64,000 nt of DNA, taken from contig CAIRGJ010000015.1 of assembly GCA_903878085.1 (NCBI GenBank), positions 1-64,000 of the forward strand. The letters run 5' to 3'. This stretch comes from an uncultured Hyphomicrobiales bacterium. Lineage in GTDB: Bacteria; Pseudomonadota; Alphaproteobacteria; Rhizobiales; Xanthobacteraceae. This document shows, one piece after another, positions 814-25,537 of this stretch (position 1 is the stretch's first letter; the number at the start of each line of letters is the position of its first letter). The notes under the pieces are model-generated. The model was not told where the DNA came from, made no database searches, and was given only the letters and a program-made list of their open reading frames with translations. The translations under genes and the position numbers were made by a program.

Positions 814-2466
814 TTATTTTTCCACGGAGCGCACGGCTGTCTCGGGCTTCAGTCCGCCGCGGCGGCGCGCCAATGTGTTAGTGCCGTTGGCTTCCCAATT
901 GCCGGATGCTGCATTCTGAGCAAACGTTTCCCAACTATCTCGCCAATCGCCGAGCGCATAACCGTACCAAGGCGCCTGGAAGGAGATGGGCGGAAGCTTC
1001 AGTTTGGTCCAGAGTTCGTGGGCGCGTTCCATGTAAGGCTTAGCCGGCAAGGCGATCGGCGGCATGATGTGCTTGAGGGTCGCGTCGATCAGTAGCGTCG
1101 AGTTTGCCGTTCGCGGATCGGTCGCTCCACCTGACTTTCGGTCGGAGCTCGGGCCATGGCCGGGCGAGCGGAACGGTATAACCTGCACGTCCTCGATCGG
1201 ATTGGACCGATAGGCCATCGACCAGAACACAGCATTGGTGTTGGTCGGGTCGACATCCTCGCTAACGGCGATCACGATCTTTCCGCAATCGGCGATACGC
1301 GACGAGGCTGCTTGCAGGCCGCGCCAGACTTCGGTACGTGGCACATTGTTGGCGAATTGCAGGAAGATCAGCGGCCGCAGATTACTCAATACCTCATGCA
1401 TAACGACCTTGCGGATGCCGCTGATGCCGATCTGGCGCAGATGCGTCAGGAACAGCGGCTCCAGCGCAACCTTGCGCATGACGCTGGATTCGCTCGGCGT
1501 TACCTGGCTTATTATTGATGCGAAGACCGGGGATTTCCGGTGCGTGATTGCCGTCACCTCCATCGAAAGATTATAGTCCTCGAGCGCGACATAACCCGTG
1601 CTCTCGCCGAATGGCCCTTCCGGCTCCAAGAGTTCGGTGCTGATCAGGCCTTCGATGACGATCTCGGCATTGGCGGGGACCATCAGATCGACGGTTTTGG
1701 CCTTCACGAGCTCGATGGGTTGCCCGGCAAGCGCGCCGGCCACAGTCATCTCGTCGAAGTCAACCGGCAATCGCTGTGGTCCATTATAGCAGACCACGGG
1801 CGCGCAGCCGACGACGATGGCGCAGGGCATCGGCTTGCCCATCTTTTGATACTTCAGCCAGTGCTGGTAACCGCCCGATCCGCCGATGCGCGAAGACATG
1901 CGAACGCCGAGACGGTTGGTGCTCTTGAGGGCGGCCCGGTTCGTCGACATATTGGCGATGCCGTTCTCCGGATCCTTGGTGATGCAGAGAGTCGCGGTAA
2001 GTGTCGGCGCGGCGTCGAAGCCTGGTGTCGATACCGGCACCGGCAATCTAGCAAGCCCGCCGCCTGGTTGGGTCAGTTCCTTGCCGGTGATGACGACCTC
2101 CTGGCAACGCCCAGATTCGACTTCGATCGGCGGGATAGGATTGGCGATTGCCTTCACCCACGTAGCGCTGATGTCTTCGACGGTGCAGCCCATCCCTATG
2201 GCATAGATGTCAGGTGTGGCCGCGAGCGCGCCGACGACCACGGGAATGTCATATTTCTTGCCAGTCGAGTCGAAGACGTTGGTGAACAGAAATGCGCGCC
2301 GGTCTTGCTCCGGAACGCCGCCGACGAACTGACAGCGCACGAGCGGGTGTAACTCGGTATCCTTATTGATCGGCTCGTCGATACGCACGAGCAGCCCGCG
2401 TTTCTCAAGATCGGCAATATGCGACTGAAAATCGAGACTAATGTTCTGCTTATGTTGGGTGCTCAT
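814..2466 (-). CDS. UbiD-family prenylated-FMN decarboxylase (copy 1)
   Basis: 550 residues. UbiD enzymes use prenylated FMN to remove, or in reverse add, a carboxyl group on aromatic or unsaturated acids. The catalytic EGPFGE motif (E283 and E288) and an upstream arginine near residue 177 match the family's Arg-Glu-Glu arrangement. The length is above the roughly 490 residues of UbiD/gallate decarboxylase types, mainly through C-terminal additions, and closely matches the copy at 14550-16178, with which it shares long identical blocks. It lies between a Bug receptor and the SRPBCC gene in a leftward operon. The substrate is probably an aromatic or heteroaromatic carboxylate. No UbiX flavin prenyltransferase is present in the window. 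Confidence 0.88.
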   Translation of the reverse strand: MSTQHKQNISLDFQSHIADLEKRGLLVRIDEPINKDTELHPLVRCQFVGGVPEQDRRAFLFTNVFDSTGKKYDIPVVVGALAATPDIYAIGMGCTVEDISATWVKAIANPIPPIEVESGRCQEVVITGKELTQPGGGLARLPVPVSTPGFDAAPTLTATLCITKDPENGIANMSTNRAALKSTNRLGVRMSSRIGGSGGYQHWLKYQKMGKPMPCAIVVGCAPVVCYNGPQRLPVDFDEMTVAGALAGQPIELVKAKTVDLMVPANAEIVIEGLISTELLEPEGPFGESTGYVALEDYNLSMEVTAITHRKSPVFASIISQVTPSESSVMRKVALEPLFLTHLRQIGISGIRKVVMHEVLSNLRPLIFLQFANNVPRTEVWRGLQAASSRIADCGKIVIAVSEDVDPTNTNAVFWSMAYRSNPIEDVQVIPFRSPGHGPSSDRKSGGATDPRTANSTLLIDATLKHIMPPIALPAKPYMERAHELWTKLKLPPISFQAPWYGYALGDWRDSWETFAQNAASGNWEANGTNTLARRRGGLKPETAVRSVEK

Positions 2467-2558
2467 GAGACAACGTCATCCTTTGTTTTTGCTCTGAACG
2501 TCGCTCCGCCTGCTTTTTGCTTTTTCGGGCAGCAGAAAGAGCTTGTTAAGGGGTGGGC

Positions 2559-3536
2559 CTAGTGGATGAAATCCGCCTGGGTCGCAAGGTCCGTCCATTT
2601 TTTCAGATCGCTTTGGAATTTGGCACGCACCTCGGCCGGCGTGTGCGGATCGGCAAAAATGGCCTGATTGAACAGAGCTCGTTTGATGTCGTCCTGTGCC
2701 AGTATCTTATTGATCTCGGTGCTCAGTCTGTCGACGATGTCCTGAGGTGTCGTGGCCGGGGCAATCACCGCGAACCACAGTGAAGCCTCGTAACTGGGCA
2801 AACCGGACTCAGCTATTGTCGGTACCGTGGAAAACTCAGGGATGCGCTGGCTCGTCGTAACGCCGAGCGCCCGGAGCTGTCCGCCTTTGATATAGCGTTG
2901 GGTTGTCGTCAGGATGCCGAATTGCGAATCGATGCGGCCTGCGAGCAGATCGATCACCCCCTGTGTCGAACTCTTGTAAGGTATCTGCGTCAGCTTGATT
3001 CCAGCCATGTTTGAGAACAATTCCGCACCAAGGCGAGCGAGGCTTGCCTCACCTTCGGACGAATAAGACAGGCCTCCCGGTTTGGTCTTGGCGAGCGCAA
3101 TATAATCCTGGATGCTCTTCGCGGGGACCGATGGGTGAACGACTAGTACAAAGGGCGAGTAGCCGATCATGGCGATCGGCACAAAATCATTCAGCGCATT
3201 GTAGCGGATGCGTTTGTTAAGGACTGGCACCGTTACGAGCGTCGTTGTTGTTGCAATCCCGATCGTGTATCCATCGGCGCTGGATTTAGCGAGTTGGGCC
3301 GTGCCGAGTTCGCCGCTCGCGCCTTCACGGTCATCGACGATGACAGGCTGGCCGAGTTTCTCGGAGAGCTTCGATCCGATCAGCCGCGCCACAGTGTCGG
3401 CGGCGGAGCCGGCAGGGAAGGGCACGATGACGTGGATGGGGCGGTCCGGCCATGGGGCTGCCTCGGCGCTCATTGAAGTCGAAAATGATGCCACCGCAAG
3501 CGCCAAAGCTAAAGCAGGCGAAGTCCGAAGGGCCAT
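2559..3536 (-). CDS. Bug-type tripartite tricarboxylate transporter receptor (copy 1)
   Basis: 325 residues with a Sec signal peptide ending near residue 27 (AEA before APWPDRP). The mature protein opens with the family hallmark WPDRPIHVIVPFPAGSAADT and carries ADGYT near residue 105. Bug proteins bind carboxylates in the periplasm and pass them to TctA/TctB membrane proteins. No TctA or TctB gene is in the window, so this is an orphan receptor, which is common in the family. A perfect AGGAGG ribosome site precedes the start. Its place next to the UbiD gene suggests it binds that enzyme's substrate. Confidence 0.9.
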   Translation of the reverse strand: MALRTSPALALALAVASFSTSMSAEAAPWPDRPIHVIVPFPAGSAADTVARLIGSKLSEKLGQPVIVDDREGASGELGTAQLAKSSADGYTIGIATTTTLVTVPVLNKRIRYNALNDFVPIAMIGYSPFVLVVHPSVPAKSIQDYIALAKTKPGGLSYSSEGEASLARLGAELFSNMAGIKLTQIPYKSSTQGVIDLLAGRIDSQFGILTTTQRYIKGGQLRALGVTTSQRIPEFSTVPTIAESGLPSYEASLWFAVIAPATTPQDIVDRLSTEINKILAQDDIKRALFNQAIFADPHTPAEVRAKFQSDLKKWTDLATQADFIH

Positions 3537-3719: not shown

Positions 3720-4577
3720 CTATAGGCTGCACTTTGCTCGAATCTTTTCGAGCAGCGGAAGGAGATAGCGGCGGAATTGGAGCGGATTTTCACTCATGGC
3801 GAAATGCCCTATGTCCTTCATCACGATGACCTCGGCGCCCCAGACACGCTCTGCAGTTTGCATGGTGTCTTCCGGAGTGCACGAGAAGTCATATTCACCG
3901 GTCATTAGGTACAGTGGACAGACTCTCGTATCGATCTTGGCAAGTTCGGCGCGCAGATCGGAGTCGACGCGATAGAAATAAATGTCACCTTTAAACACAC
4001 CAGGGCCACTCTGCATGTATTGCCACAACGTATCCCAGCGGTTCACAGTCGGGCTCTGTGGCGCGATCAGGCCGGATACGATGCCGGCGCAAATCTCACC
4101 GCCATGCACATCCGGGCGATGAAGCCAGCTCGAATCGTACCAGCCGGTCTGGTATGCGGCCGAGTCGAGGCCGATCAATGCAGTGAATTCTTCACCGTGA
4201 CGCATGGCGAGGCTCAGAACGATGCGGCCGCCGATCGAGCAGCCGAGCGTGACCGGTTTTTTGAGATCAAGTGCATCGCGAACCGTGCGGATCGCTTCGA
4301 TATAGGCGTCGGTTGTGAGACAATAAGCTTCGTCCTGCCAGCCGTCGGGTGGCGTCGACTTTCCGTGCCAGGGGAGGTCGAAGGCAATAACTCGGAAATG
4401 ATCGGTAATCGCACTGTCCGTCATCATGTGCCGGAACTGGCGGCCATCGGCACCAGCGGTGTGCAGGCAAAGGAGGGGGATTCCCTGTCCGGCTTCCTCG
4501 AAATAGACTCGATGCTGGCGGCCTTGAAGCGTGACATGCACGTACCGGCCCATGATTGGATCGAACTTCAGTGTCAT
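3720..4577 (-). CDS. Alpha/beta hydrolase (module 1)
   Basis: 285 residues with a complete catalytic triad: nucleophile S114 in GCSIGG, D230 in GEYDF and H258 in DIGHFA. The oxyanion segment is CLHTAGADGR around residues 37-46. This pattern fits the meta-cleavage-product hydrolase / enol-lactonase branch, which cuts C-C or ester bonds in ring-fission products. The start overlaps the stop of the SCP2-like gene by four bases (ATGA), so the two are translationally coupled. It is the hydrolase partner of the first UbiD/Bug module. Substrate unknown. Confidence 0.82.
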   Translation of the reverse strand: MTLKFDPIMGRYVHVTLQGRQHRVYFEEAGQGIPLLCLHTAGADGRQFRHMMTDSAITDHFRVIAFDLPWHGKSTPPDGWQDEAYCLTTDAYIEAIRTVRDALDLKKPVTLGCSIGGRIVLSLAMRHGEEFTALIGLDSAAYQTGWYDSSWLHRPDVHGGEICAGIVSGLIAPQSPTVNRWDTLWQYMQSGPGVFKGDIYFYRVDSDLRAELAKIDTRVCPLYLMTGEYDFSCTPEDTMQTAERVWGAEVIVMKDIGHFAMSENPLQFRRYLLPLLEKIRAKCSL

Positions 4578-5248: not shown

Positions 5249-6175
5249 TTGGCTTGGTCTGTACCACCGCTAAATCCGTTGCATGTTTTCGAAGTGGCGA
5301 GCCGCGTCGGGAGCTTCACCAAGGCAGCGGAAGTGCTGAGCGTGTCCCCGTCGGCCGTCAGCCGGCAAATTGCGGCTTTGGAGTCTTTCCTTGACGTACG
5401 GTTGTTCCGCCGCGCGCGGGACGGAAACGTTCTCACCGAGGTCGGCGAGGAATATTATCGTGCTATAGCACCGGCGTTTGATACCATTACCTCGGTGACC
5501 GATCGGATCAAGCGCGCCCAGGACAGTGCACCGCTTAGCGTCCGCGTCCCTTCCACCTTCGCGGTGCGTTTTTTGATCTCGCGCCTGTCGGAATTCCGGA
5601 AAGAGCATCCAGGCACCAATGTGCGGATCATCACTGGCTTCGGGCCAGTCGATTTTGTGCGCGAAGATGTCGACATTTCGATCCAGGTAGGCTCGGGGGA
5701 CTGGCCGGGCACCGAGAGCAAGATGCTCTTTGCCAATTGGGTCCAGCCGATGTGTAGCCCGAAGCTGTTCAAGGACGGGCAACCGATTCATCACATTGAC
5801 GAGCTTCTGGGCTATCGTCTCCTGATATCCAATAACCGGCCGACCGACTGGATCGATTGGATGACGGCGGCCGGGCGGCTCGATTTCCCGTTGGATCATA
5901 TGGAAATCATCGAATTTCCCAATTCATTGCTTGCCAACCAGGCTGCGGCTGAAGGCCTCGGTATCGTCATCGGCCAAGTTCCCGTACTCGGGCCTGAATT
6001 TGCAGAGCAGGCGATGGTCCGATTGTTCGACAAGCCGATCCGCCAAGGCTCCTATTATGCAGTCTGGCGCGCGGAGACCGGACCAAGCCGTAAGGCACGG
6101 CAATTCCTGTCGTGGCTGCAGCGGCAGCTCGACCCGGTGTTGGCGCGATTGCCTCAGGATTCGGCGGCAGCGTAA
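5249..6175 (+). CDS. LysR-family transcriptional regulator
   Basis: 308 residues. The N-terminus holds the winged helix-turn-helix, with PPLNPLHVFEVASRVGSFT, then AAEVLSVSPSAVSRQIAALE, and LFRR closing the wing near residue 57. The C-terminal effector-binding half is of the GcvA-like type. The start is a TTG preceded by GAGG eight bases upstream; no in-frame ATG fits better. It is divergent from the SCP2-hydrolase-Bug-UbiD operon and upstream of the carboxymuconolactone-decarboxylase-like gene, so it probably controls that operon in response to its substrate or product. Confidence 0.9.
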   Translation: MAWSVPPLNPLHVFEVASRVGSFTKAAEVLSVSPSAVSRQIAALESFLDVRLFRRARDGNVLTEVGEEYYRAIAPAFDTITSVTDRIKRAQDSAPLSVRVPSTFAVRFLISRLSEFRKEHPGTNVRIITGFGPVDFVREDVDISIQVGSGDWPGTESKMLFANWVQPMCSPKLFKDGQPIHHIDELLGYRLLISNNRPTDWIDWMTAAGRLDFPLDHMEIIEFPNSLLANQAAAEGLGIVIGQVPVLGPEFAEQAMVRLFDKPIRQGSYYAVWRAETGPSRKARQFLSWLQRQLDPVLARLPQDSAAA

Positions 6176-6361
6176 TCGCGCGGCAGTAGGACTAGTCTCG
6201 TGACCAAAAGTCACGTCTCCATGCCGATAGCGAAATTGTACGGCTCATGCCGGTGAGCGATAAGCTCGACAAGTTGCCGCGTATTCGCTTGGGTCGATCT
6301 GCCGGCGTATGCGCGGCATTTTATCAATCGGACATGAACTGTCTCGCATGGGAGGACGAAC

Positions 6362-6742
6362 GTGAGCGACGACGAGCACTACGAACAAGGGATGAAGGTG
6401 CGCCGGTCGATCCTCGGCGACGCCTGGGTTGACCACACGCTGAAGAACCGCAACGAATTCAACACTGAAATCCAAGAGATGATCACCCGTCATGTCTGGG
6501 GCGAAATCTGGACGCGTCCGGCGATCGATCACAAGACGCGCCGCTATATGGTCATGTCGATGATGATCGCATTGCACCAATGGGAAGAGTTCAAACTTCA
6601 CGTGCGTTCGGCACTTTCGAACGGTTTTACCAAGAACGATATAAAAGAGATTATTCTGCAAGCCACCGTCTATTGCGGCGCACCAGCCGGTAATCACGCT
6701 ACGCACGAGGCTTCTGTGGTATTCGCCGAGCGTGAAGCCTGA
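6362..6742 (+). CDS. Carboxymuconolactone decarboxylase-family protein
   Basis: 126 residues, a normal PcaC-like length. Recognisable elements are RRSILGDAWVD near residue 14, an EFNTEIQEMITRHVWGEIW block and the tail YCGAPAGNHA with its conserved Cys and His. Family members include gamma-carboxymuconolactone decarboxylase and AhpD-like proteins. The GTG start at 6362 follows a GGAGGA ribosome site by five bases. It is read in the same direction as the LysR gene. The PcaC reaction itself is not proven, because this branch is broad and no other protocatechuate-pathway gene lies nearby. Confidence 0.8.
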   Translation: MSDDEHYEQGMKVRRSILGDAWVDHTLKNRNEFNTEIQEMITRHVWGEIWTRPAIDHKTRRYMVMSMMIALHQWEEFKLHVRSALSNGFTKNDIKEIILQATVYCGAPAGNHATHEASVVFAEREA

Positions 6743-6871: not shown

Positions 6872-7843
6872 TCAATCCAGCTTGATGCCGGCTTCGGTGA
6901 TCACTGCCTTCCATTTCACAGCATCTTTTTTAATCAGATTGGCGTAAGGTTCCGGCCCTGGGTCGCCGAAGCTCGCGCCCTGCTTGGCCAAAATCGCAAT
7001 ATAGGCAGGGTCCTTCTGAGCGGCGATCATTGCAGCCCGCAGTCGATTGACGATGTCCGGAGCCGTTTTCGAGGACACAACGAAGCCGAACCAGCTCATC
7101 GCTTCGACATTAGGCAATCCACCTTCTGCCATTGTCGGCACATCCGGAATTGCGGTTTCGCGTTTCGGGGCGGCCACCCCCAGGCCCACGATTTTACCCG
7201 CCGTGATCTGCGCCGCGATGCTTGTTGCGTCTCCAAAGAGGGCGTCGATCTGGCCTCCCATCAGCGCTGGGAGGCTCTCGCTAGTGCTACGGAACGGGAT
7301 GTGGATGATGTCGACTTGAGCCTCATGCTTGAAGAGCTCGATCGCGAGATGCGTGACTGAGCCGACGCCCGCCGATCCGATAGTGGTCTTGCCGGGATGA
7401 GCTTTGGCGTAGGCGACGAAATCCTTCAGCGTCTTGATGCCGAGCGTCGGGCTGATAGCGAGAGTCAACGCCGAACTCCACACTGTGCCCAGTGGCACGA
7501 AGTCGTTAATAGGGTCGTATGTGACTTTTTTTGCCGCTGGAATGATGGTTAGCGGCCCAATTGCCCCAAGAAGGATAGTATAGCCATCCGGAGCATAGCG
7601 CTTGAACGATTCGGTGGCATTCAGCCCTCCTCCTCCTCCCTGGTTCTCGATGATGACGGGTTGGCCCAACTGGCGGCTGAGTGGCTCGGAAGCCAACCGC
7701 GCGCCGGTATCGCTTGGACCGCCAGCCGCATAAGGGACGAGCACCCGGATCGGCCGCGTAGGAAAACTATCGGCGGCAATTGCATCCTTCGCCGCGATGG
7801 CAAGGACAGTGGCGATGATAAGTGTCTTTGCAAAGGAGCGCAT
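6872..7843 (-). CDS. Bug-type tripartite tricarboxylate transporter receptor (copy 2)
   Basis: 323 residues with a signal peptide ending near residue 23 (AIA before ADSFPTRP). The mature start PTRPIRVLVPYAAGGPSDT and the later PDGYT are Bug hallmarks. It stands alone on the minus strand between the carboxymuconolactone-decarboxylase-like gene and the amidohydrolase, with no TctA/TctB nearby. It may supply substrate to the amidohydrolase / molybdenum hydroxylase operon that starts 260 bases away in the opposite direction. Ligand unknown. Confidence 0.9.
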   Translation of the reverse strand: MRSFAKTLIIATVLAIAAKDAIAADSFPTRPIRVLVPYAAGGPSDTGARLASEPLSRQLGQPVIIENQGGGGGLNATESFKRYAPDGYTILLGAIGPLTIIPAAKKVTYDPINDFVPLGTVWSSALTLAISPTLGIKTLKDFVAYAKAHPGKTTIGSAGVGSVTHLAIELFKHEAQVDIIHIPFRSTSESLPALMGGQIDALFGDATSIAAQITAGKIVGLGVAAPKRETAIPDVPTMAEGGLPNVEAMSWFGFVVSSKTAPDIVNRLRAAMIAAQKDPAYIAILAKQGASFGDPGPEPYANLIKKDAVKWKAVITEAGIKLD

Positions 7844-8106
7844 GACTTCTTAGGCATCCTGATGAACGTTGCGGCAGCTTAGACCTATTTTGCCGCCCAC
7901 ATAGCAACTGGCGTCTTAGACGAGATTGCAAAAAACTCACACGTCTTTGCCGATAAAGAAATTGCCGGCCTAAGCCAAAGCTCTTAGCAAAGGTCTCCGA
8001 GCGGAATGGCGCACCCGCGGCGTCTCATCAACCCGACGAGACATGCGCGGCGCTGCTTAAAATGTGGCGGCGGGGTAGGCTGCGGGATATCACTGAGCAC
8101 CTAATC

Positions 8107-9087
8107 ATGATCATCGACGCACACGCTCATTTTGTTCCCCAGGCTTTGCTTGACGAAGTCACTTCGCAGCGACGATCCTTTCCGTCTGTGAAAGTGGCCA
8201 CCGAGAATGATGGCGTTCGCTTTGCCTTCGCGGGTCAGGAATTTAAGCGGCCAGTCCCGGCGGGTATGAGCGACGTCGACCGTCGCCGCCTATGGCTGCG
8301 CGACCGCGGCATCGACAAACAGGTAGTCGGCGGTTGGCTGGACATGTTCGGCTATGACCTGCCGGCAGAGGAGGGGCTTGAGTGGAGCCGCTTTCTCAAC
8401 GCACACATGCTCAAGGCGGTATCCGAAATACCCTTTTTGGTGCCGCTGGCAACCGTACCGCTGCAGTCAGGAAAACTTGCCGCGAAGGTGCTCGAGGAAG
8501 CGCTGGATCAGGGGTTCCATGGCGCCATGATCGGAACCCAGCCAAAAGGCGCTGGCGGAGTGCTCGACGATCCCGATCTAGAACCGTTCTGGGAGGCGGC
8601 GTCGGCGCGCAAGGCTGCGCTTTTCATCCATCCGACCTTTGGCGCTCGTGACGACCGGCTGAAAGCCTATGGCCTTGTCAGCGCGGTGGGCCGCGTGACC
8701 GACACCACAATGGCGGTTGCCAGGCTTCTGTACTCCGGCCATCTCGTTCGATATCCCGGAGTAAACTTGATCATCTCGCATGGAGGCGCCGCGCTGCCGA
8801 TGATTTTCGGACGCCTGCAGCGCAGTTTTGCGACCGCGCCGGCGCAGAATGCCGATCCCGCCCTCGGCTTCTACAAGCTGTATTTCGACTCCGTCGTCTA
8901 TGATGCGCTGACGATCCGCTTCATTTGCGATTTGGCCGGCGCCGATCGGGTCCTAATGGGAACGGACGAGCCGTTCACCATTGCCGAGCAGCAACCGGTC
9001 AAGCTGATCGAATCGTGCAACTTCGATGCCGTTAATCGGCAGGCGATCCTGGGCGGCACGGCAGCTAGGCTTTTCGGAATTTCGTGA
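8107..9087 (+). CDS. Amidohydrolase_2 family metal-dependent hydrolase/decarboxylase
   Basis: 326 residues from the ATG at 8107, which places the metal-binding DAHAHF motif at residues 4-9. Further ligands are seen in [15 protein letters not shown] and MGTDEPF. This is the ACMSD / gamma-resorcylate decarboxylase branch, whose members remove carboxyl groups without an organic cofactor or hydrolyse ring-cleavage products. It leads an operon with the three molybdenum hydroxylase subunits and an aldehyde dehydrogenase, so it probably acts in the same catabolic route. Whether it decarboxylates or hydrolyses cannot be decided from sequence. Confidence 0.85.
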
Positions 9088-9139
9088 GGATACGGCCTCG
9101 CCGTTGGAACGGGCGGCGAATGTCGCTCAAGGAATGCAC

Positions 9140-9613
9140 ATGCCAATTGTATCGATGACGGTCAACGGCGCTCTCCGAAGCGCGGAGGTCGAAGGCCGCA
9201 CATTGCTGGTTCAGTTCCTGCGAGACTATCTGCATCTGACCGGAACCCATGTCGGATGCGACACCAGTCAATGTGGTGCGTGCACGGTTCACGTCGATGG
9301 CGTGGCGATCAAGTCCTGCACGGCATTAGCGGTTGCCTTCGACGGTGCGGTCGTTACCACGATCGAAGGTCTTCAAGATGGTGAAAGGCTGCATCCCATG
9401 CAGCAGGCCTTCCACGAGAACCACGGACTCCAGTGCGGGTTCTGTACACCGGGAATGATTATGTCGGCGATCGATATGGTCCGCCGCTGTGGTCATGACC
9501 TCGATGAACATACGATCCGCAGACAACTCGACGGCAATCTCTGCCGCTGTACCGGTTACCATAATATTGTTCTAGCTATTCGATCTGGCGCGGCCGCAAT
9601 GCGGCCAAGGTAA
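9140..9613 (+). CDS. Molybdenum hydroxylase 1, 2Fe-2S subunit
   Basis: 157 residues from the ATG at 9140, which has AAGGA six bases upstream. The plant-type 2Fe-2S ligands lie in [12 protein letters not shown], with a fourth cysteine in KSC. The second cluster is in QCGFCTPG and NLCRCTGY. The subunit relays electrons from the molybdenum centre to FAD. It is followed seven bases on by the FAD subunit. The order small-medium-large is that of isoquinoline/nicotinate-type hydroxylases as well as aldehyde oxidoreductases. It starts 50 bases after the amidohydrolase stop. Confidence 0.95.
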
Positions 9614-12827: not shown

Positions 12828-12882
12828 TCTGTGCAGAGAATCATACGCTCTGCGGCTGGACTTGAAAATGGTGGAACTCTCG

Positions 12883-17121: not shown

Positions 17122-18099
17122 TTAGAGAGCAGCGAGCGCGTCATTGTAGAAGCTCTCGTCGACATAGCGACCGGTTGAAGTCGTTCCTGCATGTGGCTTT
17201 CCAGAGTAACCAGCCCGTAGGGCAAGTACATTTTCCATGCCGGCAAGATCGATCTTGGCATCCTTCGCAAAACCGGCCTTTGGATCGGAAATCTGGTGGA
17301 AGCACTGTTCGGCGATGTCGGTTTCTATATCCATACGCTGCGTCAGCAGTTCGATCGCCGCCGAACGGTTCTTCGGATCCATCGACCAGCGCAAGCCTTC
17401 AATATAGGCAGCGATATACTGAGTTAAGGCGTCGCGATTCTTCTCCGCCCAACCACGTTTTACAAATCCGCCAGTCGATTGATAGGCGCCAATAACATTG
17501 GTGGGGTCGTCAAGCACTTTAAGCCCGGCGCGCTGGGCAAAGAGATTGAACGGCAAATTGAGCATAGCGAAGTCGACCTTCTTCTGTTTCAGCGCATCGA
17601 GGCGAAATCGTGTGGCCCCCACCGATTCGATTTTGTAGTCGGTTTGCTTCATGCCTTTACGTTTGAGGATTTCGTAAACGACAATAGCGAACGCCGTATC
17701 CACGGCGTCAACCCCAAATATTCTTCCGCGCAATTCCTCGTAAGAGGTGATGTCCGGCTGCACAATCAGTTTGTTGAAGCCATGGTCGAGGCCGACGACA
17801 ATCGCCACGTCCTGACCGGCGATGTCGACCATCGCGACCGCGTTATCGACTGCAGAGTGGGCAATGTCGTATTCACCGCTTGCTAGGCCGCCTCGTTGTT
17901 GTTCCGAACTTTTCGTAAACGTGGTCTTGACCGCGAGACCACGTCTTTCAAAAAAGCCATTTGCTTCAGCTGCAAAGTTAGGAAAGTTTTGAACACCTTG
18001 AAAAACGATGAGATGCAAATTCTTCAACGCAGGCCTCTTTGATATCTCGATGAGCCTAGACAACCGCTTCAGGCACGATGGCACGTCATGAAACGTCAT
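17122..18099 (-). CDS. NMT1/THI5-like substrate-binding protein without obvious signal peptide
   Basis: 325 residues. The body follows the NMT1/SsuA fold: NGFFERRGL near residue 50, SGEYDIAHSAVDNA near residue 75, and a GRIFGVD hinge near residue 125. Such proteins normally bind small aromatic or sulfonate ligands for ABC importers. The first 30 residues are charged and lack a hydrophobic core, so export is doubtful. Either the start is elsewhere or it is a cytoplasmic binding or sensor protein. No ABC permease or ATPase is adjacent. It is the first gene of the module with the hydrolase and UbiD copy 2. Confidence 0.72.
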   Translation of the reverse strand: MTFHDVPSCLKRLSRLIEISKRPALKNLHLIVFQGVQNFPNFAAEANGFFERRGLAVKTTFTKSSEQQRGGLASGEYDIAHSAVDNAVAMVDIAGQDVAIVVGLDHGFNKLIVQPDITSYEELRGRIFGVDAVDTAFAIVVYEILKRKGMKQTDYKIESVGATRFRLDALKQKKVDFAMLNLPFNLFAQRAGLKVLDDPTNVIGAYQSTGGFVKRGWAEKNRDALTQYIAAYIEGLRWSMDPKNRSAAIELLTQRMDIETDIAEQCFHQISDPKAGFAKDAKIDLAGMENVLALRAGYSGKPHAGTTSTGRYVDESFYNDALAAL

Positions 18100-18290
18100 T
18101 CAAGGCAGCGCAGCGCCGTGAGGTGTCATCGCAAGATTTATGAAACGAGAGTGATCGAATAGGCGGGGGTAGACTCGTGCAACCCGCCGATCTCGTCGCA
18201 CCGGAGAATGTCCACCCCGAGCGTGACGCAACACAGCTTTACAAACTTGCATCGGAAGGTGGTAGAAATGGTGGAAAGGGAGAAAACAAA

Positions 18291-19268
18291 ATGACCTTTA
18301 AGTGCCTCGTTGGTGCGACGTTAATCGCCGCAAGCGGCGTCCTCGGACTGCATACGAGTGCTACTGCGGAGCAATATCCAAGCAGGCCGATTCGTATGAT
18401 TATCGCGTTTCCGGCGGGTGGTACGCTTGATACGCTCGCGCGTATCATTTCACAGAAGCTCTCTGAAAAATGGGGCCAACCGCTCTTGGTCGAGAACCGC
18501 CCGGGTGCGGGCGGCAATATCGGCGCGGTTGCCGCCGCTCGTGCAGCCCCCGATGGATATACGCTGCATTTTGGAGCTCAGTCCCTTGCGGTAAACGTCA
18601 CTATCGCGCCACAAAAAGATTTTGATCCCGTCAAAGATTTTGAGCCGATCATTCTGGTTGCGACGGCCCAGGATGTTCTCATGGTACCGCCGGATTCGCC
18701 GTTTCATTCGGTCAAAGAATTGATTGGCTATGCGAAGGCGCATCCCGCGCAACTGAACTATGCAACCTTAGGTCCAGGTACGAGCGCGTATCTCGCGACA
18801 GTGTTGCTCAGCGATCTTGCCGGAATCAAGATGCAGAACGTGCCTTATACCGCTGTTTCACAAGCCTCGACGGATTTACTGTCCGGCCGCGTTTCTCTCT
18901 TTCTTCCGACGCTTGGCGGGCACCTCGGACACATCAAGGCCGGGAGCGCGCGTGCCTTGGCGGTATCGGGATCGGTCCGAGCAGATCAGCTACCGGACGT
19001 CCCGACCTTTGAGGAAATTGGCGTACCGTTTGTCGCGGAAACAAGTTGGTATGGGGTCTATGCGCCGAAGGGCACCCCTCGCGAGATCATCGCCAAGATA
19101 AACCAAGACGTTAATCTCATCCTTGAATCACCGGATGTTAAAGAGAGGAGTGTGCCGCTCGGCTTTCGACTGCTCGGTGGTCCACCAGAGAAGCTGCGCG
19201 CAAAGCTTGAGAGCGAGATCGCGCGGTGGGCAGAGGTCGCCAAGAGCGGTTCGCTCGCCGCGAATTGA
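18291..19268 (+). CDS. Bug-type tripartite tricarboxylate transporter receptor (copy 3)
   Basis: 325 residues from the ATG at 18291, eight bases after GGGAGA. The signal peptide ends near residue 27 (ATA before EQYPSRP), followed by PIRMIIAFPAGGTLDT and PDGYT. It is divergent from the NMT1-like gene (start 18099) and convergent with the next binding-protein gene. No TctA/TctB is present. It is the third orphan Bug receptor of the region and is probably dedicated to a carboxylate used by one of the nearby UbiD operons. Confidence 0.9.
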   Translation: MTFKCLVGATLIAASGVLGLHTSATAEQYPSRPIRMIIAFPAGGTLDTLARIISQKLSEKWGQPLLVENRPGAGGNIGAVAAARAAPDGYTLHFGAQSLAVNVTIAPQKDFDPVKDFEPIILVATAQDVLMVPPDSPFHSVKELIGYAKAHPAQLNYATLGPGTSAYLATVLLSDLAGIKMQNVPYTAVSQASTDLLSGRVSLFLPTLGGHLGHIKAGSARALAVSGSVRADQLPDVPTFEEIGVPFVAETSWYGVYAPKGTPREIIAKINQDVNLILESPDVKERSVPLGFRLLGGPPEKLRAKLESEIARWAEVAKSGSLAAN

Positions 19269-19297: not shown

Positions 19298-20332
19298 CTA
19301 CTTCGTCGCCAAGGCCTTCTCTACGAAAACGTTGGTATAGGTCTCGGACAAATCGAATTTCGCGGCCGCAACCGGCGGATTGAACTGCTTCAAAACCGCG
19401 TAAGCCGCTTCCGCCGCGCCTGGCAGAAAGCGTCCGTCCGCGGAATACATCGCCTTGCTCGCAGCGATCGCCTGCGTATAGACGGGAAAATTTCCGAGAG
19501 CGTATTCCGGCGGCATCAGCTTGGCGATGTCCTCGGCCGAATGGCTGGCGATCCACTGCAATCCACGCACAAACGCATTGACCACTGCCTGTGTTGTCCT
19601 TGGGTTCTTCTCGGTAAAAGCGGGCGTCGCATAGACCACGCCGCCTGGATAGGGCCCGCCATAGACTGCCTGCGTGCCTTCCGATGTGCGGGTGTCGGCG
19701 ACTACCGTGATCAGCTTTTCGCTCGTCATCAGGCTCGCCATCGGATCGGAAGTGACAATCGCGTCAATTTCCGCGCGTCTTGCGGCCGCGACTGCGGTCG
19801 CTGTCGTACCGGTGGAGATGAACGAGACGTCGGTATCAGGATTGAGCCCGCTGCGCACCAACATATAGGCGGCCATGAATTGTGTGCTGGAGCCGAGACT
19901 GGTGACGCCGATCTTCATGCCCTTGAGATCTTTCGGGCCGTGATAGCGTGACGCTTTCGCGGTCATCATGCCGAGCACGAAACCGGGATATCGGCCCATC
20001 TGCACGATGGAAACCACCGGCTGACCTTTGGCCTGCATCTGGATTGAATGATCGAATGTGCCGGTCCCGAATTCGGCGCTGCCGCCGACGATCGCTTGCA
20101 GAGTCCGCGCGCCGCTCGACACATCGGCGATCTCGACGTTGAGCCCAGCATCTTTGAAATAGCCGAGATGTTCCGTCACCGAGAGTGGCAGATAAAATAG
20201 CGCCGACTTACCACCGACCGCAATGCGGATATTCGGTGTTTCCAGCTTGCTGTCCTGCGCGAAAGCGACGCCCGTCATTGCCAGCGCCAACGCGAGCGTC
20301 AGTCCGGCGCAGCGCATCCAGGTGATGCTCAT
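19298..20332 (-). CDS. NMT1/SsuA-like periplasmic substrate-binding protein
   Basis: 344 residues from the ATG at 20332, with GAGGAG eight bases upstream; the open frame runs further back only by chance over the MFS gene. A clear signal peptide ends at AFA before QDSK. The mature protein shows LGYFKDAGLNVEI near residue 65 and the hinge DLKGMKIGV. It is an ABC-type binding protein of the taurine/nitrate/aromatic group, but no permease or ATPase lies in the window. It is the last gene of the GntR-hydrolase-hydrolase-UbiD-MFS operon. Confidence 0.85.
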   Translation of the reverse strand: MSITWMRCAGLTLALALAMTGVAFAQDSKLETPNIRIAVGGKSALFYLPLSVTEHLGYFKDAGLNVEIADVSSGARTLQAIVGGSAEFGTGTFDHSIQMQAKGQPVVSIVQMGRYPGFVLGMMTAKASRYHGPKDLKGMKIGVTSLGSSTQFMAAYMLVRSGLNPDTDVSFISTGTTATAVAAARRAEIDAIVTSDPMASLMTSEKLITVVADTRTSEGTQAVYGGPYPGGVVYATPAFTEKNPRTTQAVVNAFVRGLQWIASHSAEDIAKLMPPEYALGNFPVYTQAIAASKAMYSADGRFLPGAAEAAYAVLKQFNPPVAAAKFDLSETYTNVFVEKALATK

Positions 20333-20430
20333 CGATTTTCTCCTCATTTGTTGCTCGTCAACCGAGTTTTCCAAAACCGTAGTCGAAGTCCCGCAGATTT
20401 GCCCTTCACGCAGGATACGCCAGTAGCGCG

Positions 20431-21861
20431 CTAATTTCGGGCGGGTCCGCCGCTTGTTGCAAGGCTCGTATCGCCGCCGCGCAGTTCCGTTTGCGAGGTC
20501 TGCGGAGATAATGCTGCGTCGTTCAACTGGTCGCCGTGAAAGCGTTGCCGACAAAGGCGCACTAGCACGAAGCAGGCAAGCGCTCCGACAACGAGCGGCA
20601 CCGCAGGCGCGATGAAGAGCTCGTACGTTGGCAGCTTCATGGCGATTAACCACGCCCCCAGCATCGGACCGACAATTCCCCCTAGGCGACCGATGCCGAA
20701 GGACCAGCCAGCGCCGGTGGCTCGAATCCGCGTCGGATAGATCAGAGCAGTCGTTGCGTTGAGACCCAGTTGCACCCCGAGAACACAGAATCCTGAGAGG
20801 AAAACAAATACCATCACCGCAACTTGCGGGAGACCTGGCAAACCGACGCAGGCGACCAAAGGACAACCTGCCGCAAAAAAGAGGGCCACTGGAACGAGCC
20901 CACGACGATCGATAAATCGACTGACCGTCAGTCCGCCGATGACGCCGCCGACGTAATAGCAAGCCGTCGTTAATGCGGCTTGCGACGATGAAAAGCCCTC
21001 CGCCCGAAACAGAAGCGGCATCCAACTATAGAGAAAATAGTTGGCGGTGAGATTCATTGCAAACAACAACCACAGCAACGGTGTAATCCAATGCAATCCG
21101 TCTTGGAAAAGTTCAGCAACAGGAACCGAGCTGGCGCGGCGCGTCTCAGTGCTAACAAACTCAGTCTCTGGCGAAATCGTGAGATCGGGTCGCACCCGGC
21201 GAATAATTTTTTCCATACGGGCGCGCGCATGTTTCGGATCCTTCAGGCTCAGGCACTTGAGCGATTCCGGAAGCCAAAAGAAAAGCACGACTGATAGAAT
21301 CAGGGGTGCGACACCCCCAATGATGTAAAGGCCTTGCCAACCATAATGGGGCAAGGCTGCAACAACTAGCGCCGGCAGAGTGCTACCCGCCGTCACGCCC
21401 ATGAACATAAGCACTACAAGTGTAGCTCGAACGCGCTTTGGTGCGAATTCCGCGTTCAACGCGGTTATGTTGGGGAGCATTCCGCCAAGCCCGATGCCCG
21501 TAATGAATCGGAGCACCATCAGTTCGGGGATGGAGGTCGCTCCGGCACAGAGTAAAGTGAATACGCCGTAGATTAGTGTACCGAGGATCACTGTCCGGCG
21601 ACGCCCGATCCTGTCGCCCAACCATCCCAAAAGGGGTGAGCCGAGAACCATGCCCAGAGGGCTTGCGCTGAACACCGGTCCAAGCGCCGCCGGATTGACA
21701 TGCCAGGCTGTAATTAATGCGGGGGCGCCATAGGAGGCGGCAAGAAGATCGTAGCCGTCCGTTAACATGATCACGAATGATAAGAATACGAGGCGGATCG
21801 TAAACGATCCGATGCGCTGCTCGTCGACCAGCCGTGTCACATCGATTGTTGGGCGTTCCAT
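20431..21861 (-). CDS. MFS transporter, aromatic acid:H+ symporter type
   Basis: 476 residues with about 12 hydrophobic segments. The first loop carries the MFS signature GWLGDRIGRR and the first helix carries LTDGYDL, the acidic motif of the AAHS family (PcaK, BenK-like). A second, degenerate copy of the loop motif reads VSRFIDRRG near residue 310. It probably imports the substrate of the neighbouring UbiD enzyme with protons. It lies between UbiD copy 3 and the binding protein in a leftward operon. The ligand is inferred only from family and context. Confidence 0.85.
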   Translation of the reverse strand: MERPTIDVTRLVDEQRIGSFTIRLVFLSFVIMLTDGYDLLAASYGAPALITAWHVNPAALGPVFSASPLGMVLGSPLLGWLGDRIGRRRTVILGTLIYGVFTLLCAGATSIPELMVLRFITGIGLGGMLPNITALNAEFAPKRVRATLVVLMFMGVTAGSTLPALVVAALPHYGWQGLYIIGGVAPLILSVVLFFWLPESLKCLSLKDPKHARARMEKIIRRVRPDLTISPETEFVSTETRRASSVPVAELFQDGLHWITPLLWLLFAMNLTANYFLYSWMPLLFRAEGFSSSQAALTTACYYVGGVIGGLTVSRFIDRRGLVPVALFFAAGCPLVACVGLPGLPQVAVMVFVFLSGFCVLGVQLGLNATTALIYPTRIRATGAGWSFGIGRLGGIVGPMLGAWLIAMKLPTYELFIAPAVPLVVGALACFVLVRLCRQRFHGDQLNDAALSPQTSQTELRGGDTSLATSGGPARN

Positions 21862-21984
21862 GGGTATCTCCCTTCAGACGTATTGTTCTTGTTGAAAGTG
21901 CTCCGCGTTGTGGCAGGTCGTCTCGCTTTCAGTCTCAGGCCGTTATCGCGACAACCCCGTTCGATATTTCATTGATGATGCAAT

Positions 21985-23451
21985 TCATAACCCGTTCAAC
22001 AACCACCCGAACTTCTCCTGCGCCTTACGAGCGACCTCGGGGCTTGGTGTGTTCGCGGGGGGAAACTGATCGCGCCAATGATAGGGACGGCAAGCGTTGA
22101 TGATCGCGACCGAGTGTGTCAGGTCGCCTGCCTTGCGTCGCTCCGGGGGCAACCGAGGATCTGCCGGTGAATCCCAGGAGCCGCTGATAAACTGAATGGA
22201 CTCCTTTGGATCAGTCCGCATCAACATCGCCCAAATCAGTTGCTCAAGATTCGTGACATCGACATCTTCGTCTGCCACGACGATGTACTTTGATGCGTAT
22301 GCCGAACCGCCGCATTGCGCGGCGATCATCCCGGCTTGGGTTGAGTGCCCTGGATAACTTTGCTTGATCGCGACGCCATGAAACATGCGGGCGGCGCCGA
22401 CTTCATGGCACCACACTTGCCGAACCTCCGGCACACCGGCGTTCATCATATTCTGCTTGATAATCGCCGAACGCATTACGGCCCGGTAGCGCGCCATTTC
22501 GTCCGATCCCGCGCCCATTGGCGGCACGCCGACCAAAATTGGATCGTTGCGGTGATAGATCGCCTTTATGTCGATGACGACACACGGCTTTGCGCCGCCG
22601 GCGTAGTGCCCGCACCATTCGCCGAACGGCCCTTCCACTAACTTGCGGTCCGGATGCACATAGCCTTCGAGCACGATCTCGGCCCCGGCGGGAATCGGCA
22701 ACCCCGTCACTTTGCCCCGCACCATCTTTTCCGGACGTCCGCGAAGCCCGCCGACCATGTCAAACTCGAACGTCCCGTAAGGCGCCTCCAAGCCTCCGTA
22801 AAAGAAGGCCAATGGATCGCCGCCGACAACCATCGCCACCGGCATCGGTTCGCCGCGCTTGAAGTATTTCTCACAATGGATAGCGCCGTGATGGCCGGGT
22901 GCGATCAAGATTCCGACGGTGGTCTTGTCGAATACTTGCGCTCGATAGGCCCCAGCATTGTACCAATTGTCTTCAGGGTCGTGCGTAATCGAATAGGTGC
23001 CTGTGCCGATATAGCGACCGCCATCTTTTTCGTGCCAGTTAGGGGAGGGAAACTTGAGGACGTCGACGGCATCGCCCATGAGAACATTCTCGAAGATCGG
23101 GCCATCATCGACGATTTCGTGAGGAATTAGTTTTGGTTCGGTTAGGAAGGCTTCTCGGTAGGCTTCGCTGAGCTCCTGCTTCGTCAAATGATCCGGAAAG
23201 CCGAGGGTCATATTGCGTCGAGTGCCGGCGAACATATTGAGGAGTAGCCGAAATCCTTTCGGGCACCCGGGAACGTCATCGAAAATGATACAGGGTCCGT
23301 TATCGGCACGTAGAATGGCCTCCGCAGCGAGACCAATGTCTTCCTGCCAACTCGCACCGCTGATTGCTCGGACCTCATTCAGCCGCTGTGCTTCAGAAAT
23401 CCACTCACGCAGGTCATTGTAGACAATGCGCGAAGTACTGTTTTTGGTCAT
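21985..23451 (-). CDS. UbiD-family prenylated-FMN decarboxylase (copy 3)
   Basis: 488 residues, the usual length for UbiD and gallate-type decarboxylases and shorter than the two other copies. The catalytic pair is E273/E278 in VEGPFGEW, with R170 in NAGAYR. The sequence differs strongly from copies 1 and 2, so it is a separate lineage, not a recent duplicate. It is leftward, preceded by two alpha/beta hydrolases and a GntR regulator and followed by an MFS carrier. It likely decarboxylates an aromatic or vinylogous acid made or imported by this operon. Confidence 0.88.
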   Translation of the reverse strand: MTKNSTSRIVYNDLREWISEAQRLNEVRAISGASWQEDIGLAAEAILRADNGPCIIFDDVPGCPKGFRLLLNMFAGTRRNMTLGFPDHLTKQELSEAYREAFLTEPKLIPHEIVDDGPIFENVLMGDAVDVLKFPSPNWHEKDGGRYIGTGTYSITHDPEDNWYNAGAYRAQVFDKTTVGILIAPGHHGAIHCEKYFKRGEPMPVAMVVGGDPLAFFYGGLEAPYGTFEFDMVGGLRGRPEKMVRGKVTGLPIPAGAEIVLEGYVHPDRKLVEGPFGEWCGHYAGGAKPCVVIDIKAIYHRNDPILVGVPPMGAGSDEMARYRAVMRSAIIKQNMMNAGVPEVRQVWCHEVGAARMFHGVAIKQSYPGHSTQAGMIAAQCGGSAYASKYIVVADEDVDVTNLEQLIWAMLMRTDPKESIQFISGSWDSPADPRLPPERRKAGDLTHSVAIINACRPYHWRDQFPPANTPSPEVARKAQEKFGWLLNGL

Positions 23452-23533
23452 GCTGTTCTCCGGGCGTAACTTGAGGCTCTTTCAGAGGAAAGCCTAACGG
23501 AAGGGATGTCGATGCACGGGATTTTTGAATCGC

Positions 23534-24412
23534 TCATGTATTTTCCGGCCTCCCGATCGATGAAGTTGCTGTTGACGCTGTCGCAATGCGTTCGAGAAGT
23601 TGGGTCAACTCGATGGCTACGGCGTCAGGCACTTCGACCGGCGTCAGGTGCATGGCGTGGGGAATGACCCGTAGCGAGGCGTTCGGTATCCGTCGCTGCA
23701 TGGCCTGCGCCATCGCGACAGGCGTCGCATAATCTTCTTCGCCAACAATGATGCTGACGGGAATGTTCAGCGAGGAAAGGCCTTCGCGCAGATCGGCGTG
23801 ACCGAGCATCCGGCATGTCGCGGCGTAAGCGGCAATATCATTCGCCAAGAAAACGTCGACGCAAGCTTGTGTTGTCTGACGATCGGCCTTTCGGAAAGCC
23901 TCAGTGAACCATCGTGTCACCTGAAACGGGATCAGCGAGGCAATGCCTTCATGTTCGGCCTTTTCCGCGCGCTTTTCCCATGCGGCCGGGGCATCCTCTC
24001 CATACCAATCCGTCGTATCGATCAGACCGAGCCCATCGACCCGCGCGCGATGCTGCGTCGCAAAGGCCAACGTCGCACAACCGCCCATGGAGGCTCCGGC
24101 TGCCGCAGCAGACGGCCATCCGGCATGGTCGAGCACGGCCGCGAGATCATCGCCGAACGTCGCAATAGTGTATGGCCCCGCGGGCTTGTCGGAAGCACCG
24201 TGGCCGCGGCAATCATACGCAATGATTGAGCAATCGCCGGGAAGCCGATCGATCAGTTTGTCCCAGAACCTGCGGTCCATCGCGAGCGAATGCACCAGGA
24301 CCAGACGCGGCCCGTTAGCGGCGCCTTCAAATCGTGTGCCTCGGAGACGGGCGCCATCTTTGGCGGCAACTTCGAAATCGACGCCGGCACGTTTGCGAAC
24401 TTGCTGCGACAT
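23534..24412 (-). CDS. Alpha/beta hydrolase (module 3, enol-lactonase-like)
   Basis: 292 residues with oxyanion segment LVHSLAMDR, nucleophile S108 in GASMGG, acid in GEEDYATP and histidine in PHAMHLTP. The pattern is that of 3-oxoadipate enol-lactonase and related ring-product hydrolases. It lies 12 bases after the larger hydrolase and 82 bases before UbiD copy 3, all leftward. It may open a lactone formed after decarboxylation, but the substrate cannot be read from the sequence. Confidence 0.82.
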   Translation of the reverse strand: MSQQVRKRAGVDFEVAAKDGARLRGTRFEGAANGPRLVLVHSLAMDRRFWDKLIDRLPGDCSIIAYDCRGHGASDKPAGPYTIATFGDDLAAVLDHAGWPSAAAAGASMGGCATLAFATQHRARVDGLGLIDTTDWYGEDAPAAWEKRAEKAEHEGIASLIPFQVTRWFTEAFRKADRQTTQACVDVFLANDIAAYAATCRMLGHADLREGLSSLNIPVSIIVGEEDYATPVAMAQAMQRRIPNASLRVIPHAMHLTPVEVPDAVAIELTQLLERIATASTATSSIGRPENT

Positions 24413-24424
24413 AACGAATTGCCC

Positions 24425-25537
24425 TTATGACGGCATGACGCCTAGTTGTTTGGCCATCCAGTCCGCCGTTTGCGGCCGGTAGCAATAGGCACGGTTGTGA
24501 GCGACGTGATTTCCGTCCGGGACAATCAAAAGCTCGGTCGGACCACGCGCCTCGGAAATGAGCCGTTGGGCGTCTTCCGGCGGACAAAGCCGATCCAGCC
24601 CGGCGCCAACAATAAACAGCGGACATTCGATTTTTTCCGCGACGCCCTTGAGCGACAGCGCGGCTGCTTTCAGCTTGGCCTCTGCGTCGTCCGCACTCTT
24701 GCTCCGAAGACGGTAGGCATCCTTCGTGAGCGCAGGGAGTTTATCCCACAGCGCGCCCCAATCGTACGGGCCGCAAATGCCGACGCAGGCTTTGATACGT
24801 TTTTCGAATGCGGCCGCTCGTGGCGCGTAATAGCCGCCCAGGCTGAGACCCCAAATGCCGATCCGGCTCGTGTCGATGTCAGTGCGGTTCTCAACCCAGT
24901 CGATGAGGGTGCCGACTACCACTTCATAATCGGGTCGAATTTCAAAATCATATTCAGCTTCGCCCTGACCCGGTCCGTCGACCACGAGCGTGGCCATGCC
25001 CCGCTTCAAGAACGTCACCTGAAAGGAATCGAGCTCCTCCTTTGTGGAATCGAGACCATTGCACATGATGACGAGAGGCGGCCGATTGGAGGCCTTGGCG
25101 GGCTTACGCAAAACGCCGGCGAGATGCTTGCCTTCGTAGGGAATAAGAACCCGCTCGCCCGGCGGGTCAAGATGCGGCAAGGCCAGCGAGTAGCATTCGA
25201 CGGCTTTGCCATGCGCAATCCGCATCTGCTCGGGGTCTTGCGAGAAAAGATATTTTCCGAAGTGATAGCACGCCGCCGCTCGGCCCAGATGCTCGCCTGC
25301 GCTGACAAACTGCCTTTCCTCGAGGGCTTTTCGACCCATCTTTTCATGAACCAAGCCTCGTGCGGACCACGCGCGGCACCAATCATCCCAGCTTTCGATT
25401 GACGATGTCACGTCCATAAAATCGCTGAACGTCACGCCGTTCGCGGTGTAGCGCGGGCCGAAATGCGTGATGGCGTGGGCAACTCGAGGGTCTTTCACTA
25501 CTGCATCTCCTTGATTTCCGAACGGGCGGTTCTGCAT
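24425..25537 (-). CDS. Large alpha/beta hydrolase, dihydroxypseudooxynicotine-hydrolase / FrsA-like
   Basis: 370 residues. An N-terminal helical domain of about 125 residues precedes the hydrolase core. The nucleophile is S232 in GLSLGG and the histidine is in PDGNHVAHN near residue 347. This two-domain plan is that of 2,6-dihydroxypseudooxynicotine hydrolase and relatives, a group that includes C-C bond hydrolases of N-heterocycle breakdown, but also plain esterases. It follows the GntR gene by 36 bases. Its presence is the best hint that the route may handle an N-heteroaromatic compound. Confidence 0.75.
   Translation of the reverse strand: MQNRPFGNQGDAVVKDPRVAHAITHFGPRYTANGVTFSDFMDVTSSIESWDDWCRAWSARGLVHEKMGRKALEERQFVSAGEHLGRAAACYHFGKYLFSQDPEQMRIAHGKAVECYSLALPHLDPPGERVLIPYEGKHLAGVLRKPAKASNRPPLVIMCNGLDSTKEELDSFQVTFLKRGMATLVVDGPGQGEAEYDFEIRPDYEVVVGTLIDWVENRTDIDTSRIGIWGLSLGGYYAPRAAAFEKRIKACVGICGPYDWGALWDKLPALTKDAYRLRSKSADDAEAKLKAAALSLKGVAEKIECPLFIVGAGLDRLCPPEDAQRLISEARGPTELLIVPDGNHVAHNRAYCYRPQTADWMAKQLGVMPS

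Follow-up and report, generated by a model that had tools for sequence, protein, structure and literature searches.

The 64,000-nucleotide stretch of DNA analysed here (hereafter the window) comes from an uncultured Hyphomicrobiales bacterium of the Xanthobacteraceae (contig CAIRGJ010000015.1, positions 1 to 64,000), and its left part carries three genes for UbiD enzymes, (de)carboxylases dependent on prenylated FMN (prFMN), lying among molybdenum hydroxylases, alpha/beta hydrolases (ABH) and uptake proteins. We consider the left 25–31 kb to be an acquired mosaic, made up of several operons for the catabolism of (hetero)aromatic acids and founded on molybdenum hydroxylase and prFMN decarboxylase, to which reading we give a probability of roughly 0.6, and not three copies of one module. 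The original prediction, made from the DNA itself, was of three repeats of UbiD + hydrolase + own uptake protein; however, ABH1, ABH2 and ABH3 are only 22–27% identical to each other and the gene set is not conserved together in relatives. The recurring partner of UbiD is the large subunit of molybdenum hydroxylase, CoxL, with UbiX, and not the neighbouring hydrolase. This interpretation is carried by the gene identities, the intact UbiD and hydrolase nucleophile motifs, the linkage of UbiD, CoxL and UbiX in relatives and an atypical base composition.

The neighbours of UbiD were counted after greedy thinning of 171 UbiDs at <80% identity, which left 72 (69 from elsewhere and the three of the window); enough flank was available for 52 of the 69 when the unit was the operon, defined as a same-strand run with gaps of ≤200 bases, and for 48 when it was 4 kb, with ±3 kb as a further alternative. 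Control anchors numbered 230 (±3 kb and operon) or 192 (4 kb), and the tests, which covered 21 labels (operon and 4 kb) or >20 (±3 kb), are uncorrected. CoxL shared an operon with 13/52 UbiDs compared with 7/230 controls, and lay within 4 kb of 14/48 compared with 15/192, although two of the 72 UbiDs (L210 and L213) had been fetched for their ABH3, which favours the counts of both hydrolase and CoxL. UbiX was found in the operon of six of the 52 and within 4 kb of nine of the 48, and beside none of the controls at either distance. A second UbiD (11/52), the amidohydrolase AmdH2 (6/52) and a carboxymuconolactone-decarboxylase-family (CMD) protein (4/52; 3/48 within 4 kb) were likewise absent from the corresponding controls, whilst ECH was found in 7/52 operons versus 5/230, CoxS in 6/52 versus 8/230 and CoxM in 4/52 versus 6/230. 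Hydrolases showed no such excess, whether at ±3 kb (2/59 UbiD representatives, 12/230 controls), in the operon (1/52, 9/230) or within 4 kb (4/48, 26/192). The expectation that hydrolase and Bug or NMT1 genes would be found beside UbiD in other genomes was therefore borne out for Bug (operon 10/52 versus 13/230; 4 kb 26/48 versus 48/192), but neither for the hydrolase nor for NMT1 (8/52 versus 27/230; 9/48 versus 45/192). On a quick tree of the 72 UbiDs, 26 of which have CoxL within 4 kb, the CoxL label changes 21 times (starred branches impose 15 of these changes, and the mean after shuffling is 21.4); it is therefore scattered over the tree, recurring across lineages rather than being inherited once.

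Genes were called with a codon-usage caller in 121 sequences (the window, 80 named loci and 40 stretches of relatives), and gene order was compared over the 120 loci, 58 of which are in comparison with parts of the window. The part types that are dispersed in the window are found joined in single operons elsewhere: ABH3-NMT1a-CoxL1-CoxS1-CoxM1-UbiD1-GntR in L183 and L184 (34–63% identity to the window parts), CoxS-CoxL-AmdH2-CoxG-ABH-NMT1-ABC-NMT1-UbiD in L187, and ABH3-CoxG-CoxM-CoxL-CoxS-UbiD-FrsA in L210, L211 and L216. The order CoxMSL-AmdH2-Bug-UbiD is seen in L042, L046 and L083, and also in L053 and L055, where no CoxM was called. Twelve loci from Paraburkholderia, Caballeronia and other Burkholderiales read CMD-ABH-CoxG-CoxM-CoxS-CoxL-ECH-UbiD2-UbiX-aldehyde dehydrogenase, nine of them with a second UbiD and a carrier of the MFS type next. 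Relatives of UbiD1 at 12 loci (ten from genus g12, one each from g3 and g42) have CoxL-DUF2390-UbiX-CMD-UbiD, followed in six by CoxS; the DUF2390 protein between CoxL and UbiX was noted in the UbiD1-type operons L167–L172, L174–L176, L178, L179 and L181.

Several observations weigh against this interpretation. Only a quarter of the thinned UbiDs have CoxL in their operon; within 4 kb there is no excess of AmdH2 (2/48 versus 9/192), CoxM (3/48 versus 10/192) or CoxS (4/48 versus 12/192); and under single-linkage thinning, to 25 or 10 UbiDs, CoxL falls to 5/133 versus 6/360 genes (p 0.18) and 0/77 versus 6/360. The controls come from three (±3 kb) or four (operon and 4 kb) genomes, the UbiD loci from many, including alphaproteobacterial metagenome-assembled genomes. 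In the window itself the UbiD and molybdenum-hydroxylase genes lie on opposite strands, in separate operons. No UbiD is found within the stretches of L222, L241 and L242 which hold CMD-Bug2-AmdH2-CoxL1 or parts of it, and of 20 CoxL1 homologue stretches, taken from 42 matches outside the genome itself, only four have a UbiD (L254, L255, L257 and L260). The remaining 16, together with the opposite strands, the two different regulators (LysR and GntR), the separate histories of the blocks and the frequency of Bug and NMT1 in controls as well (17 and 9 genes, respectively, of 360), speak for adjacent but independent pathways, gathered by chance and by selection for catabolic breadth, with no common substrate. 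We regard this as somewhat unlikely, given that the same part types join in single operons in L183, L184, L187, L210, L211 and L216.

The hydrolases have separate histories. ABH1, in which Ser114, Asp230 and His258 are invariant in six aligned sequences (ABH1 and five homologues), is present in 69 of the 248 genomes of our homologue survey (own genome included in both figures), among them genomes without UbiD such as G012, G045, G056, G075 and G081. It is paired with AmdH2-CoxL1 in one relative at 68–75% identity; in L222 the gene comes after CoxL1 (75%) and AmdH2 (73%), with Bug2 (64%) on the opposite side, and in L223–L225 it lies near an aldehyde dehydrogenase 66–67% identical to that of the window, with no UbiD. 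The CMD-Bug2-AmdH2-CoxL1 block is itself kept at 67–74% in L242, where the CMD is 69% identical, and Bug2-AmdH2-CoxL1 at 67–75% in L241. ABH2 was found in one other genome of the 248 at E≤1e-50. Homologues of ABH3 occur in 14 other genomes, and in 11 of these the gene belongs to a molybdenum-hydroxylase operon, of which nine have CoxG-CoxM-CoxL-CoxS (L209–L213, L215, L216, L219 and L220) and two NMT1-CoxL-CoxS-CoxM (L183 and L184); L214, L217 and L218 fall outside the pattern, and UbiD is also present at six of the 14 loci (L183, L184, L210, L211, L213 and L216). Directly before the ABH3 operon of L211, at 6030–8806, are genes for a class II aldolase, an HpcH aldolase and an isopropylmalate-dehydrogenase-like protein, which could possibly represent a lower pathway.

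Three leftward runs containing UbiD, hydrolase and a binding protein or carrier do lie within 24 kb, as the original prediction had it, and the coordinates confirm them: ABH1-Bug1-UbiD1-CoxG, NMT1a-ABH2-UbiD2 and GntR-FrsA-ABH3-UbiD3-MFS-NMT1b. A true module in three copies, each with a dedicated uptake protein and serving a related acid, would also be in keeping with the paralogy of UbiD1 and UbiD2, the enrichment of Bug and the hydrolase in the same gene run as the UbiD2 relative in the 12 Burkholderiales loci. It is nevertheless improbable, considering the low identity of the hydrolases, their lack of enrichment near UbiD along with that of NMT1, and the presence of ABH1 in genomes lacking UbiD.

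All three UbiD copies have the PF01977 domain and the E-R-E catalytic residues, a motif of UbiD enzymes named in PMC8379154. As had been proposed, UbiD1 and UbiD2 are paralogues (54% identity over 537 aligned positions), whilst UbiD3 is distant (30% to UbiD1 over 339 positions). Residues R177, E283 and E288 of UbiD1 are invariant in 19 aligned sequences including UbiD1 and UbiD2; UbiD3 has EGPFGE at 273, and the matching arginine is present in the alignment. The best named relatives of UbiD2, at ≤73% identity, are from Paraburkholderia, Caballeronia and other Burkholderiales. UbiD3 has relatives at 74–80% in genera g3, g9, g12 and g34, and in the same sample the three other genomes of its own genus gave best matches of 41%, 39% and none. 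A literature search for 7pda, the structure nearest to UbiD3, found no paper. The genome has seven UbiDs in total and a single UbiX, on contig C21 adjoining another UbiD (L150; TIGR00421, 243 bits), and so encodes a supply of prFMN; a profile scan found no UbiX in the window.

Between 1 and 25 kb, in 5-kb steps, the GC content is 0.558–0.590 and the tetranucleotide z 2.1–4.1, against a background GC of 0.629 ± 0.023 in 33 windows of the same genome; the change falls at about 25 kb, and from there to 64 kb the composition is ordinary. This composition and the mixed affinities of the parts together indicate acquisition and patchwork assembly. Further to the right, at 48832–56504 (+), is an anaerobic benzoyl-CoA operon (had, oah, dch, bcrC, bcrB, bcrA and bcrD, with a class I reductase), all seven genes of which score above the NCBIfam equivalog cut-offs. 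It is preceded at 39736–48652 by a molybdopterin oxidoreductase, a 4Fe-4S protein, a PaaK-like ligase (618 against a cut-off of 646) and a 2-oxoacid:acceptor oxidoreductase, which are probably concerned with anaerobic phenylacetate oxidation. That the UbiD island feeds this benzoyl-CoA pathway, for example by (de)carboxylating aromatic acids before CoA activation, is suggested by the proximity of the reductase operon and by the best NCBIfam model of UbiD3, phenylphosphate carboxylase beta, but there is little chance of it, as UbiD3 reaches only 268 with that model (cut-off 469), the composition shifts between the two regions, and PF06050, the family of two benzoyl-CoA reductase subunits, is found in 11 of the 80 family genomes described below and in only one (G049) of the 14 rich in UbiD.

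Genome-scale counts were made in 80 genomes of the family that are ≥90% complete. UbiD is present in 54 of these, with a median of 1 and a maximum of 24, and 14 genomes have at least 8. Some related genera have 14–24 UbiD genes per genome; G080, G008, G078, G052, G011 and G055 (genera g9 and g12) have 17–24 each, and in G008:C4, G052:C64 and G078:C115 two UbiD3-type genes lie divergent within 1 kb. The number of UbiDs correlates with that of CoxL candidates, which are first-look with the best ≤26 scored per genome (Spearman 0.50, n=80; 0.51 per Mb), but not with genome size (0.14). Of the 248 genomes, 31 besides the genome itself have a CoxL1-type gene, and by hand count a UbiD1-type gene is present in 26 of these 31 versus 21/216 others, although a few genera dominate both sets and kinship confounds the comparison. 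The genome studied here has about 26–30 CoxL-type genes in 4.4 Mb.

The features of the left 31 kb are given in the table. Every gene named in the original prediction was recovered at its coordinates and strand, and each scores above the gathering threshold of a suitable Pfam family; the list was, however, incomplete, as the CoxG and CMD genes had been overlooked, and Bug2 and Bug3 are added here. The molybdenum hydroxylases and the amidohydrolase said to lie among the modules are present, but the second hydroxylase begins just to the right of 25537, and the amidohydrolase is nearest to a decarboxylase, ACMSD (best PDB match, 129 bits). Both hydroxylases are of the CoxLMS type, with the Mo, FAD and 2Fe-2S subunits all together, and another molybdenum-hydroxylase FAD subunit lies at the right edge of the window (63187–63990, −). 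The first base of the window is the first base of the contig, and the left operon is therefore cut.

Table. Features of the left 31 kb of the window.
Feature	Position	Strand	Remarks
CoxG-family protein, Mo-hydroxylase maturation type	288..761	-	PF06240 137.5 bits; downstream of UbiD1
UbiD1, prFMN-dependent (de)carboxylase	814..2466	-	PF01977 176 bits; R177, E283, E288 conserved
Bug1, TctC-type binding protein	2559..3536	-	PF03401
ABH1, alpha/beta hydrolase	3720..4577	-	PF00561
LysR regulator	5249..6175	+	PF03466/PF00126
CMD-family protein	6362..6742	+	PF02627 58.9 bits
Bug2, TctC-type binding protein	6872..7843	-	PF03401
AmdH2, ACMSD-like amidohydrolase-2 family, probable non-oxidative decarboxylase	8062..9087	+	PF04909; nearest PDB ACMSD
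CoxS1, 2Fe-2S subunit, Mo hydroxylase 1	9026..9613	+	PF01799; real start probably more internal
CoxM1, FAD subunit, Mo hydroxylase 1	9621..10421	+	PF00941
CoxL1, Mo subunit, Mo hydroxylase 1	10431..12827	+	PF02738/PF20256; motif PYRSSGR
Aldehyde dehydrogenase	12862..14322	+	PF00171; nearest NCBIfam model SSADH, below cut-off
UbiD2, prFMN-dependent (de)carboxylase	14550..16178	-	PF01977 179 bits
ABH2, alpha/beta hydrolase	16205..17035	-	PF00561
NMT1a, NMT1/THI5-like binding protein	17122..18099	-	PF09084
Bug3, TctC-type binding protein	18177..19268	+	PF03401
NMT1b, NMT1/THI5-like binding protein	19298..20383	-	PF09084
MFS carrier, aromatic acid/H+ symport kind	20431..21861	-	TIGR00895 363 bits, cut-off 418.6
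UbiD3, prFMN-dependent (de)carboxylase, other lineage	21985..23451	-	PF01977 212 bits; nearest PDB 7pda 330 bits
ABH3, PcaD/enol-lactonase-like hydrolase	23534..24412	-	TIGR02427 211 bits, cut-off 256; nearest PDB 2xua
FrsA-like hydrolase	24425..25537	-	PF06500; nearest PDB 2,6-dihydroxypseudooxynicotine hydrolase 2jbw, 147 bits
GntR/FCD regulator	25574..26323	-	PF07729/PF00392
Mo hydroxylase 2: CoxL2 26700-29054, CoxM2 29051-29923, CoxS2 29916-30410	26700..30410	+	divergent from GntR

Amongst the genes scanned in 1–31 kb there are TctC-type Bug genes but no TctA, TctB or ABC membrane parts, so a tripartite tricarboxylate transporter, which would have TctA and TctB near the TctC genes, was rejected; as the binding proteins have no membrane parts there, the MFS protein is the sole complete carrier. 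Scans of 14300–26900 for sigma-70 promoters and terminators gave 5 and 14 sites versus 6.4 and 13.8 in shuffles and are uninformative, and an Rfam scan (gathering thresholds) and a tRNA scan gave no match.

For a mosaic of operons of this kind we infer the direction of the reactions, the order of the steps, the substrates and the joint working of the parts as follows. The acids would be taken up by the aromatic-acid MFS carrier and by binding proteins which rely on membrane parts encoded elsewhere. Water-derived oxygen would be added to the ring by a CoxLMS molybdenum hydroxylase, and a UbiD, with prFMN from the one UbiX of the genome, would take off (or move) the carboxyl group. The PcaD-like hydrolase, or FrsA as a relative of the nicotine-type C-C hydrolase, might then open the resulting lactone or vinylogous acid; the semialdehyde may be oxidised by the aldehyde dehydrogenase. 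More tentatively, and at rather less than even odds, this could be a so far undescribed CoA-independent route for heteroaromatic acids, widespread in Burkholderiales and Alphaproteobacteria, in which the molybdenum hydroxylase gives a lactone or lactam tautomer, prFMN decarboxylation follows and the ring is opened by a hydrolase of the enol-lactonase-like or C-C type, the kit having been multiplied for many substrates in the lineages with 14–24 UbiDs. UbiD enzymes attract interest for reversible C-H carboxylation, and the unit to test would be UbiD with CoxLMS and UbiX rather than UbiD with the adjacent hydrolase. If the pairing is true, the hydroxylase partner would help to predict the substrates of many uncharacterised UbiDs.

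The proposal that the island hydroxylates, decarboxylates and hydrolyses (hetero)aromatic acids is supported, and in the literature searched, mostly at the level of abstract openings, neither a matching pathway nor a description of a kit of UbiD and molybdenum hydroxylase was found. Form I aerobic CO dehydrogenase, the CoxL of which has the active-site motif AYxCSFR, was rejected for both hydroxylases, CoxL1 having PYRSSGR and CoxL2 TRGAGR. Phenylphosphate carboxylase was likewise rejected for UbiD3 (267.6 against 468.95 for TIGR02724; 142.6 against 564.6 for TIGR02723). The PcaD-like ABH3 (2xua, 117 bits) and the CMD-family gene are points of likeness to the 3-oxoadipate pathway (PcaD/PcaC), but ABH3 is under the PcaD cut-off and no ring-cleaving dioxygenase is found among the genes scanned in 1–31 kb. 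HudA/PA0254, which acts on pyrrole-2-carboxylate, and AnInD, an indole-3-carboxylate decarboxylase, are alike in being UbiD-family enzymes of heteroaromatic acids; their matches are weaker (HudA 83 bits to UbiD1 and 176 to UbiD3; AnInD 70–91 bits).

The furan (hmf) pathway also has a UbiD (HmfF), a molybdenum enzyme, a hydrolase and a carrier in one region, according to PMC12064950. Its named parts are the decarboxylase HmfF with its UbiX partner, a molybdenum furoyl-CoA oxidase/dehydrogenase, a hydrolase and the carrier HmfT, and the island shares with it the presence of UbiD, molybdenum enzyme, hydrolase and carrier. The best PDB match of both UbiD1 (143 bits) and UbiD2 (148 bits) is 6h6x, which we take to be an HmfF and the chain residue 296 of which we presume to be H297. 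According to PMC7976604, H297 is the furan-specificity histidine of HmfF. UbiD1 and UbiD2 have a serine there in the alignment (the position being inferred), and among the genes scanned in 1–31 kb there is neither an AMP-binding CoA ligase nor a UbiX, the PaaK-like ligase at 44 kb lying among other genes; a furan identity was rejected on these grounds. By analogy, the island would appear to resemble hmf in logic whilst not being a member of it. In the pyridine pathway of nicotine degradation in Arthrobacter, the molybdenum hydroxylase Kdh acts together with 2,6-dihydroxypseudooxynicotine hydrolase. The island differs from it in adding UbiD3 and ABH3, and quinoline 2-oxidoreductase and a CO dehydrogenase (both 480 bits) match CoxL2 practically as well as Kdh does (482 bits); the likeness consists in Kdh being the best PDB match of CoxL2 and the hydrolase of that same pathway the best match of FrsA, the two genes flanking one GntR.

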